Below are positions 10,860-12,989 of a stretch of DNA of 53,202 nt, in pieces. The first letter of the stretch is position 1, and each line of letters begins with the position of its first letter. Below the pieces are notes generated by a model. It was not told the origin of the DNA and made no database searches. It was given only the letters and a program-made list of their open reading frames with translations. Both the position numbers and the translations under genes were made by a program. The DNA comes from Actinomycetota bacterium (GTDB taxonomy: Bacteria; Actinomycetota; Actinomycetes; Streptosporangiales; Streptosporangiaceae): contig DAHVAN010000450.1 in NCBI GenBank assembly GCA_027314595.1, positions 1 to 53,202 on the forward strand, in the 5' to 3' direction.

Positions 10860-11357
10860 ATGCCATCTGAGTACGCCAAGACACTGGGCGCGCGGCTGCG
10901 CGCCATCCGCACCCAGCAGGGACTCTCGCTGCACGGCGTTGAGGAGAAGTCCCGCGGACGGTGGAAGGCCGTCGTGGTCGGTTCGTACGAGCGCGGGGAC
11001 CGCTCGGTGACCGTTCAGAAGCTCGCCGAACTGGCCGAGTTCTACGGTGTCCCGGTCTCCGAGCTCCTGCCCGGCGACGCCGCCCCGACCCCTATCGCGA
11101 CCGCGCCCAAGCTCGTGATCGACCTTGAGCGCATGAACTCGCTGCCGAAGGAGAAGGTCGGCCCGCTCGCCCGCTACGTGGCCACCATCCAGGCGCAGCG
11201 CGGCGACTACAACGGCCGGGTGCTGTCGGTCAGGCACGAGGACCTGCGCTCGCTCGCCGTCATCTACGACAAGTCGCCCGCCGACCTCACCGACGAGCTC
11301 ATCAGCTGGGGCGTGCTCGACGCCGACGCGCGCAGCACCGCCATCGAGTCCTTCTGA
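10860..11357 (+). CDS. bldD: Developmental master regulator BldD (c-di-GMP-responsive HTH repressor)
   Basis: Represses sporulation genes during vegetative growth when dimerised by cyclic di-GMP (established for Streptomyces). The 165-aa protein has an N-terminal XRE-type helix-turn-helix (about residues 8-70; TLGARLRAIRTQQGLSLHGVE, SYERGDRSV) and a C-terminal domain with the c-di-GMP signature RXD-X8-RXXD. Here that is R114-G-D116 and R125-H-E-D128, at the same residue numbers as in Streptomyces BldD. The start ATG at 10860 follows GAGG. It is divergent from the pyr operon and ends at a strong hairpin terminator. Confidence 0.95.
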   Translation: MPSEYAKTLGARLRAIRTQQGLSLHGVEEKSRGRWKAVVVGSYERGDRSVTVQKLAELAEFYGVPVSELLPGDAAPTPIATAPKLVIDLERMNSLPKEKVGPLARYVATIQAQRGDYNGRVLSVRHEDLRSLAVIYDKSPADLTDELISWGVLDADARSTAIESF

Positions 11358-11411: not shown

Positions 11412-11978
11412 TCAGCTCGCCGGCCTGAGCGGGAGGGGCAGCTGGCTGTCGACGCCGAGCGCCCGCTCGGCCACCGACAAGAACGTTCCCGCATCCCTGA
11501 GCAGGTCCTCGGCCTCCCGCGCGGTCGCCGCCCGGGGCAGGCCCGCCTCCGCCGCGGCGCGCTTGGCCGCGCTTGCCGCGAAGTACGCCGCCCACTCGGC
11601 GAGCGTCGGCTCGACCTGCGGGAGCAGCTCCCACACGCTGCGCGGGCGCCGCCGGCGCGCCCCGGTTCCCGGTTCGCCCCTGGCCGCGACGATTGCCGCC
11701 GCCGCGCGCAGCGCGGCCAGATGGGCGCAGATGTAGCGGGTGCCGGGATCGGCCTCGGCGCCGGCCTCGGCCAGGCCCCGCCGCGCGGTCTGGAGCAGGT
11801 TCAGCACCGTCGGGGAGACCAGGTGCCGCGGCGGCGCCAGCACCGCCTGTCCCCCCGGCACATGATGCGCCGGCTGGGCAGGGCGTCCGGCGCCGTCTGG
11901 CGAGGGCACGTCGTGGCCAGATCCCGCGCTAGCACGCGTTGGCATTTCGCTGTCCGCCGTTGTCAGCGTGCTGATCAT
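11412..11978 (-). CDS. SAV_6107-family HEPN-domain protein, possibly SOS-controlled
   Basis: The 188-aa protein has a disordered N-terminus (~50 residues) followed by helices typical of the SAV_6107 HEPN family: VLNLLQTARRGLAEA, RYICAHLAALRAAAAIV, VWELLPQVEPTLAEWAAYF. HEPN domains often act as RNases through an Rx4-6H motif, and RYICAH (R81-x4-H86) fits it. The ATG at 11978 is chosen because GGAG lies 8 nt upstream; a GTG three codons earlier abuts the same GGAG. A LexA-like box sits between the -35 and -10 of its probable promoter. The cellular role is unknown; RNase activity is inference from the motif. Confidence 0.78.
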   Translation of the reverse strand: MISTLTTADSEMPTRASAGSGHDVPSPDGAGRPAQPAHHVPGGQAVLAPPRHLVSPTVLNLLQTARRGLAEAGAEADPGTRYICAHLAALRAAAAIVAARGEPGTGARRRRPRSVWELLPQVEPTLAEWAAYFAASAAKRAAAEAGLPRAATAREAEDLLRDAGTFLSVAERALGVDSQLPLPLRPAS

Positions 11979-12368
11979 GGTCTTCACTCCTTCAGCTATC
12001 TGCCGCAGCCTGTCCCGTCACGGGAGGGCCGGCCGGGCGAAGCGCTTCCCCACGCTCCGCCCGGCCGGCGGCCGGCCGCCAGGGGTCGCGGCGGCCGGGA
12101 TTCGCCACACCTCTATTCGAACACAGGTTCGTGGCAATGTCCAGCTTATTGCTGACACTTTCGAAGTTACACGGGAGGTCTGACATTCTGGGCGGCGCCC
12201 GCAGGCTCGCCGGGCCGCCGGCTCGCCGGGCCGCGCTCCGGCAGCACCCGGGGCGCCGCGGCTGCGGTCGTGACGGTCACCCCGGTCCGTTCCGGATCAT
12301 ATGCCTGAAACCCCGCAGGGACGGGCCCGCGGGGACCACGGCGGGCAGCGTCCCGTAAGCTGAGGGTG
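11979..12368. other. Divergent intergenic region with SOS-like box and hairpin
   Basis: 390 bp without a gene. It holds the LexA-like box and promoter for the HEPN gene, a perfect 12-bp stem (12028-12039 with 12058-12069) with an 18-nt loop in that gene's 5' UTR, and a short direct repeat GGCTCGCCGGGCCGC near 12200-12235. At the right end is the -10 box for the GNAT gene (TAAGCT, 12356-12361). Confidence 0.6.
12108..12137 (-). promoter_or_regulatory. LexA/SOS-like box inside HEPN promoter
   Basis: TCGAAC-ACAG-GTTCGT (12117-12132) matches the actinobacterial LexA consensus TCGAAC-N4-GTTCGA at 11 of 12 defined positions. On the minus strand TTGCCA (12137-12132), a 16-bp spacer and TAGAGG (12115-12110) form a plausible promoter, with the box filling the spacer. 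Confidence 0.55.
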
Positions 12369-12989
12369 ATGAGCCAGACGGTCACATTCACGGAGCTGGG
12401 GCCAGCCGAGTTCCGGTTGGCCATAAACCGGTTCATCGCCGTCTACCGGGCCGCCATGAACCCGCCGGAGCGGACGCTCTCCGGCCGGGACGCGATCCTG
12501 GACCGGCACGCAGCCAACCCCGGGTTCCGCGCGCTGACCGCCGTGCTGGGCACGGGGGGGAGCCAGTCCAGGGCAGTGCTCGCCGGATTCACCTACGGGT
12601 TTCACGGGCTGCCGGGCCAGTGGTGGCATGACACGGTCGCCGGGGCGCTCGCGATGTCGTCCGCGCCCGGGGCGGCCGCCTGGCTCACCGACTCCTTCGA
12701 GGTCGCGGAACTGCACGTGCTGCCCGCCTACCAGGGCTCGGGGATCGGCCGCGAGCTGCTGACCCGGCTCACCGCGGGCCGGCCGGAGCGGACGGCCGTG
12801 CTGTCCACGGCGGACACCGAATCGCGCGCCAGGCGGCTGTACCGGCGGGTCGGATTCACCGACCTGCTGACGGCGTACCGGTTCTCCGGCGGCGATCCGC
12901 CCTACGCGGTGATGGGCGCCACCCTGCCGCTGCGCTCGGTGGCGGCGCCGGCGCCTGACCCGCCCCGCGTGCCAAGGCCGAGCAGCTGA
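12369..12989 (+). CDS. GNAT-family N-acetyltransferase
   Basis: Transfers an acetyl group from acetyl-CoA to an unknown amine substrate. The 206-aa protein has the GNAT core: the beta4 region [25 protein letters not shown] contains the acetyl-CoA pyrophosphate loop (QGSGIG). [10 protein letters not shown] follows as the family's conserved C-terminal motif. The -10-like TAAGCT ends 7 nt before the ATG at 12369, suggesting a leaderless transcript; a GTG one codon earlier is less likely. The last 88 bp overlap the 3' end of metF on the opposite strand, so the two mRNAs are complementary there. Confidence 0.85.

Follow-up and report, generated by a model that had tools for sequence, protein, structure and literature searches.

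A conserved SOS box suggests LexA control of an actinobacterial HEPN_SAV_6107 gene with a conserved leader RNA hairpin

Introduction

HEPN domains carry their catalytic Rx4-6H motif at the end of helix 3, and the SAV_6107 family has been tabulated as lacking it (PMC3710099). In Corynebacterium glutamicum, the gene cg2381, annotated merely as encoding a conserved hypothetical protein, is named as a member of the LexA regulon (Jochmann 2009, as cited in PMC5055667) and is upregulated with ciprofloxacin (M = 3.86; PMC5055667). The main table of a LexA ChIP–seq paper on Streptomyces venezuelae (PMC9380542) does not name the HEPN_SAV_6107 family.

Mutation after DNA damage is driven in actinomycetes by the SOS mutasome, of which some components may still be missing from the description. 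In the best-matching literature on combinations of HEPN, dnaE2 and LexA the word HEPN does not occur, and no role is assigned to HEPN_SAV_6107 in the literature that we found. Here we describe a HEPN_SAV_6107 gene in a window of 53,202 nt (the whole stretch of DNA that was analysed) together with its relatives across the class. From sequence comparison, this family is placed in the predicted LexA regulon and in a mutasome cluster.

Results

The minus-strand open reading frame was assigned to the SAV_6107 family in an earlier note on this DNA, and it matches Pfam PF18726 (HEPN_SAV_6107) with 119.1 bits (E = 1.3 × 10−34, cut-off 27.2), which bears the assignment out. The likelier start codon is the ATG at 11976–11978, downstream of GAAGGAG; the GTG at 11985–11987 (191 aa) was rejected because the ribosome-binding site overlaps that codon. 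The gene is flanked by bldD and by GNAT–metF (Table 1). Family counts follow GTDB labels. HEPN_SAV_6107 is present in 229 of 251 genomes of the GTDB family that contains genus g71, and a PF18726 gene was found in none of about 20 sampled genomes of g71 itself, which is probably Mycobacterium.

Table 1 Features of the HEPN_SAV_6107 locus (positions in the window)
Feature	Position	Strand	Basis or remark
bldD, convergent neighbour	10860–11357	+	NF050110 TransRegBldD, 289.8 bits
HEPN_SAV_6107 coding sequence, 188 aa	11412–11978	−	PF18726 profile match
Codons for C-terminal QLPLPL, resembling a β-clamp hexapeptide	11427–11444	−	Tail comparison
Codons for R84-Y-I-C-A-H89	11721–11738	−	Start of helix 2 (model helix 81–103), not the canonical Rx4-6H position
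Ribosome-binding site GAAGGAG	11987–11993	−	Sequence, 8 nt before ATG 11978
5′-leader RNA hairpin (model R1)	12024–12071	−	Covariance model match, covariation
Core stem-loop	12031–12066; loop GGGGAAGC 12044–12051	−	Part of the model R1 hairpin
−10 hexamer TCGAAT (the SOS box extends into it)	12115–12120	−	Conserved spacing; predicted
SOS (LexA) box ACGAACCTGTGTTCGA (plus strand TCGAACACAGGTTCGT), 11/12	12117–12132	−	Consensus match, conserved in orthologues
−35 hexamer TGGACA	12138–12143	−	17-nt spacing from TCGAAT conserved in the window's sub-clade
Degenerate distal half-site TTCGAAAG	12158–12165	−	Site of a second SOS box, or of a TTCGAAC half-site, in sister genomes
GNAT acetyltransferase, divergent neighbour	12366–12989	+	PF13508, 38.4 bits

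The LexA-like box that had been noticed in the promoter is real, and scores 11 when matches to the simple consensus TCGAAC-N4-GTTCGA are counted over its 12 positions. Its exact core, CGAAC-N4-GTTCG, occurs a single time in the window, at this promoter. In the 6.2-Mb genome there are 10 such sites versus 8 for a reversed control pattern, a rate at which about 0.0004 exact boxes are expected by chance per 300 bp. The genome encodes LexA (TIGR00498, 242 bits), and another of its exact SOS boxes lies at the start of ruvC (L007:1501–1514), a gene validated in S. venezuelae as a target of LexA (PMC9380542).

The 500 nt that precede each HEPN domain were scanned for conserved boxes, with control windows from the same loci. 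Boxes of at least 10/12 precede the gene in 28 of 30 loci of the window's family (control windows, 1/120), in 31 of 34 non-Corynebacterium loci of the Mycobacteriaceae-type family (10/136), in 47 of 73 Corynebacterium loci (18/1228) and in 6 of 8 Streptomyces-like loci (1/32), the control rate being about 1–7%. Across more than 20 further families, all 24 sampled loci have a box of at least 11/12 before the HEPN gene or its operon, and in 22 of them the match is 12/12. Many genomes of the window's family carry two boxes about 40 bp apart. Conservation of this kind across the class, far above the controls, strongly supports the predicted LexA (SOS) control of the HEPN_SAV_6107 gene, as the earlier note had proposed.

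The same note had set the box within the spacer of a promoter formed by TTGCCA and TAGAGG. These hexamers, 16 nt apart, are not conserved in sister genomes and were rejected in favour of TGGACA-17-TCGAAT; the pattern common to the window's sub-clade is TGGAC-N17-TCGAAT (or TCGACT). Given this conserved promoter, the box takes up the greater part of the spacer and runs into the −10 hexamer, covering its first bases. In the clade with two boxes, the common promoter is TTGACA-N17-TATGTT and the proximal box lies on the −10 hexamer. A scan for consensus promoters and terminators gave no match.

A PafBC (RecA-NDp) motif, for which the published PafBC consensus is TGTCGG/TGTCAG-N10-TAnnnT (PMC8151990), was not found upstream of the HEPN gene of the window. 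It precedes HEPN in 28 of 34 Mycobacteriaceae-family loci, mostly as TTGTCGGTG-N8-TATATT, in all 8 Streptomyces-like loci and in 28 of 50 same-family loci, and occurs in 1 of 732 control windows. Orthologues with this motif (L050, L051, L090–L119 and L041–L047) may be under dual DNA-damage control.

The HEPN leader has a folding z of −3.15, and the covariance model of its hairpin has one match in the window's genome, at this leader (E = 3.4 × 10−8). A hairpin with an invariant GGGGAAGC loop is present in 46 of 50 same-family leaders. Compensatory changes affect 9 of 16 pairs (27 distinct sequences), a result that none of 500 shuffles equalled, and shifting the stem partners lowers the paired cells from 87% to less than 50%. 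Among the other HEPN-containing genomes of the family, nearly all of those searched have their best copy at the HEPN leader. The same loop, on unrelated complementary stems, is found between the SOS box and the first gene in f7, f75, f78, f79, f86, f90 and f97, and hairpins with the GGGGAAGC loop occur in eight families in all; in Mycobacteriales the loop is one base shorter (GAGGGAAGC). None of 394 control windows matches the hairpin. The GC hairpin that had been suggested for the 5′ untranslated region is therefore not only real but far more significant than was guessed.

Assignment to a known RNA family was rejected, as no Rfam family matches the window leader, the hairpin or the family leaders. 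Streptomyces-like genomes, Corynebacterium and many further families gave no match to the GGGGAAGC hairpin, and the Mycobacteriales model R2 found no hairpin in 18 genomes of g71. Some leaders without it (L258, L264, L268, L271 and L056) contain a different hairpin, with the loop C(C/U)UCGACCC. Leaders of the two-box clade (L013–L040, for example L029) have an extra hairpin directly after the promoter, with a loop of about GGACUCGCGG, and another hairpin with GUCGGCGGA.

Of 17 genomes of the family in which no PF18726 gene was detected, 14 contain a strong copy of the hairpin. Fifteen HEPN-less loci (L277–L291, for example L281) keep the order metF–GNAT–(SOS promoter, hairpin)–bldD in the same place, with bldD convergent and an SOS box of 11–12/12 upstream of the hairpin, and tblastn of these loci found no trace of HEPN. 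In most of them the box directly follows a TTGACG...TTAACT or TTTACT promoter, and terminator-like long stems come after the hairpin in some. Comparison with Rfam gave only unrelated sub-threshold matches; the loci with matches to the PyrR-binding site (L282:353–402, L289:217–330, L284:2661–2742 and L290:2733–2876) contain pyr genes as well.

In the bldD tree, the HEPN-less genomes fall into one well-supported clade together with three HEPN-containing genomes; the best tree requires three label changes, and a single origin is conceivable. This placement indicates that the hairpin outlived the HEPN gene across at least nine genera. A strict tie between hairpin and HEPN is overturned by the HEPN-less genomes that retain the SOS promoter and the hairpin. 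The simplest reading is that the gene was lost and that a putatively LexA-controlled RNA was retained in these relatives, and the SOS promoter and hairpin that they share suggest such an RNA. We regard as possible, though doubtful, the alternative that the hairpin is a cis attenuator or autoregulatory site of the HEPN mRNA alone, without a role once the gene is gone. Binding of RNA or nucleotides is common among HEPN domains, and HEPN-containing genomes of several families have one strong hairpin copy each, placed after the SOS promoter and before the start codon. An exclusively cis role is, however, difficult to reconcile with 15 relatives in which promoter and hairpin remain in place without a detected PF18726 gene, and with persistence over that many genera.

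AlphaFold2 predicts a four-helix HEPN bundle (core pLDDT > 90) for the window protein, and the best PDB match to the model is 2hsb (AF0298; Z = 15.5, r.m.s.d. of 2.2 over 118 residues). RYICAH, which the earlier note had read as the Rx4H of a HEPN RNase, is present at residues 84–89 but at the start of helix 2, and its position rules it out as a canonical HEPN RNase site. The end of helix 3 reads R143-x4-A148, with no histidine, so that the canonical Rx4-6H is absent; R143, E147 and G149 are conserved there. R-Y-x-x-A-H is invariant in 30 of 30 proteins of the family, 8 of 8 Streptomyces-like proteins and nearly all proteins of other families. The Mycobacteriales form is R-F-x-x-A-Y, and residue 89 is Tyr in 33 of 34 Mycobacteriaceae-family proteins and in all 21 sampled Corynebacterium proteins. 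Because R-Y-x-x-A-H is invariant in most other families, R84 and H89 of the window protein could possibly form an atypical active site.

The suggestion that the gene encodes an RNase loses its footing with the missing canonical motif and with the loss of H89 in these two groups. Its fuller form, in which an SOS-induced, metal-independent HEPN RNase cleaves RNA by R84/H89 (perhaps R143/E147) and slows growth after damage, seems unlikely to us. The fold is that of HEPN proteins, with HepT and Csm6 HEPN domains as well as 2hsb among the structural matches; R-Y-x-x-A-H is invariant in most families, and R143 and E147 are conserved; and AF0298-type HEPN proteins, which also lack the canonical histidine, have been proposed to use another (PMC3710099). 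Weighing more heavily are the absence of Rx4-6H, with which the family is tabulated (PMC3710099), the change of H89 to Tyr in Mycobacteriales and the further loss of R84 in most Corynebacterium proteins, in which the SOS box is retained. Moreover, no MNT antitoxin gene adjoins the HEPN gene in the window.

The C terminus offers a different lead. The tail QLPLPL resembles the β-clamp motifs of ImuB (QLPLWG; PMC10421592) and Hda (QLSLPL; PMC3836487), and a Q..LP tail is found in 28 of 30 loci of the family and 7 of 8 Streptomyces-like loci. Q-x-x-(L/M/F) follows the last helix in 42 of 50 same-family, 8 of 8 Streptomyces-like and 17 of 28 other-family proteins (19%, 37% and 19%, respectively, of shuffled tails). 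A hexapeptide of the type Q-L-x-L-(F/P)-(L/F) is present in 33 of 50 family tails versus 2% of shuffled ones, and in 1 of 28 tails of other families. The tail lacks the hydrophobic end of the clamp motif in several families, and the clamp-like motif is absent in Mycobacteriales and Corynebacterium. We treat QLPLPL as a candidate sliding-clamp-binding peptide, as a lead.

Most sampled other families have the gene in one cluster, DUF6504–HEPN–dnaE2–(methyltransferase)–dinB–DUF3040. Two families have HEPN as the first gene, followed by imuA′–imuB–dnaE2, and some have the order HEPN–methyltransferase–dinB–DUF3040. The DUF6504, methyltransferase, DUF3040, DnaE and DinB domains were confirmed by Pfam; imuB matches that coincide with dinB are cross-hits and were excluded from the counts. 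No dnaE2/imuAB/dinB cluster was found in the 9 kb around the HEPN gene of the window. Clustering with DUF6504, dnaE2 and/or dinB, or with imuA′–imuB–dnaE2, in these other families makes HEPN_SAV_6107 a neighbour of the SOS mutasome rather than an isolated toxin. The whole genus g71 lacks it, so that a part in translesion synthesis, if it has one, would not be an essential one. DUF6504, which heads the SOS-boxed HEPN–dnaE2–dinB cluster in many families (L252–L275, for example L253 and L255), is a further neighbour of the mutasome.

In Corynebacterium, the gene order is GNAT–HEPN–DUF3040–mraZ in 52 of 52 loci, and mraZ of C. glutamicum is cg2378 (PMC5055667). C. glutamicum alone among 14 control genomes has a PF18726 protein; it is not among the 57 named loci from the search with a five-sequence Corynebacterium alignment. 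From the HEPN–DUF3040–mraZ order and the PF18726 match, cg2381 is very probably a member of the HEPN_SAV_6107 family. SOS control of one member has thus probably been on record since 2009 without the name of the family, and the statement in the earlier note that such control had not been described is partly incorrect. The Corynebacterium HEPN orthologues (L147–L203) share an N-terminal M..(V/I)ISATT, and their C termini, -AA, -LAA or -LVA, resemble an ssrA-type degron.

The Mycobacteriales neighbourhood, in which HEPN adjoins DUF3040–mraZ–mraW–ftsI, could also be taken to mean that the protein is a toxin-like inhibitor of cell division or growth tied to the division (dcw) cluster. Ciprofloxacin raises both divS and cg2381 in C. 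glutamicum and lowers mraZ (PMC5055667). We nevertheless give this interpretation little credence: the proximity to mraZ resembles a remnant of the larger dnaE2–dinB–DUF3040–mraZ cluster, and Pfam finds no second domain in the HEPN protein of the window. That the box, which lies in the intergenic region between two divergent genes, regulates the plus-strand GNAT gene (12366) instead of the HEPN gene is highly improbable, as it overlaps a minus-strand promoter at conserved spacing and, in most other families, precedes HEPN or a DUF6504/dnaE2 operon with no divergent GNAT gene found nearby.

Discussion

We consider it likely that this locus is a LexA-repressed, damage-inducible unit, the transcript of which carries a functional hairpin and encodes a HEPN protein for damage tolerance. 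What the comparison shows is the box and its conservation, the gene order, the covariation of the hairpin and its persistence in HEPN-less genomes. LexA binding and induction, together with a protein partner and an RNA target, are what we infer from it, and repression by LexA is the step with good support from sequence. LexA bound at the box would extend over most of the spacer to the margin of the −10 hexamer and block RNA polymerase, as the box, its conservation and SOS biology lead us to expect. Upon damage, RecA-stimulated cleavage of LexA would free the promoter. The resulting transcript would have two conserved products: the HEPN_SAV_6107 protein and the hairpin, the loop of which (GGGGAAGC) is invariant.

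The protein is most likely an accessory factor in damage tolerance or translesion synthesis and not a general RNase toxin, because in many families it is placed in SOS translesion clusters and because its tail has a Q-x-x-L motif, which in the window resembles a clamp-binding peptide. A conserved, predicted LexA-controlled protein within this cluster in more than 12 families is a candidate for a missing component of the mutasome. For the hairpin, a function as an RNA element is the most probable reading: it would be a leader control element where HEPN is present and, in relatives from which the gene has gone, a small RNA under LexA control.

More speculatively, and on balance we doubt it, the ancient primary product of the LexA promoter may be a regulatory RNA, the invariant loop of which (GGGGAAG) would take part in the actinomycete DNA-damage response, either as a trans-acting element or by way of a protein bound to it; HEPN_SAV_6107 would bind or process this RNA, which would work on after the loss of HEPN. 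If the hairpin does act in trans, a conserved hairpin RNA under a LexA operator, kept after gene loss, would be a new family of SOS-controlled RNA.

Of the described systems, HepT/MntA (HEPN/MNT) shares the HEPN fold with the protein studied here; the window locus has no MNT partner, its neighbours being bldD, GNAT and metF, and the protein is without the RX4H at the end of helix 3. With PF18726 HEPN_SAV_6107, of the HEPN-M lineage (PMC3710099), it has in common the profile, the four-helix fold, the actinobacterial origin and the absence of Rx4-6H. The table in that paper gives no operon or architecture for SAV_6107, whereas our comparison points to the LexA regulon and to a mutasome cluster. 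The ImuA′–ImuB–DnaE2 mutasome of mycobacteria (PMC10421592) is under LexA and PafBC control, as HEPN orthologues appear to be. HEPN_SAV_6107 is not among its named components and is missing from g71, probably Mycobacterium; in other families HEPN stands at the head of or inside a cluster of this type, and that of the window stands apart. The LexA-controlled and ciprofloxacin-induced cg2381 of C. glutamicum is, by gene order, very probably the orthologue of the window gene, but neither the R....H nor the Q-x-x-L tail nor the hairpin is present in Corynebacterium.
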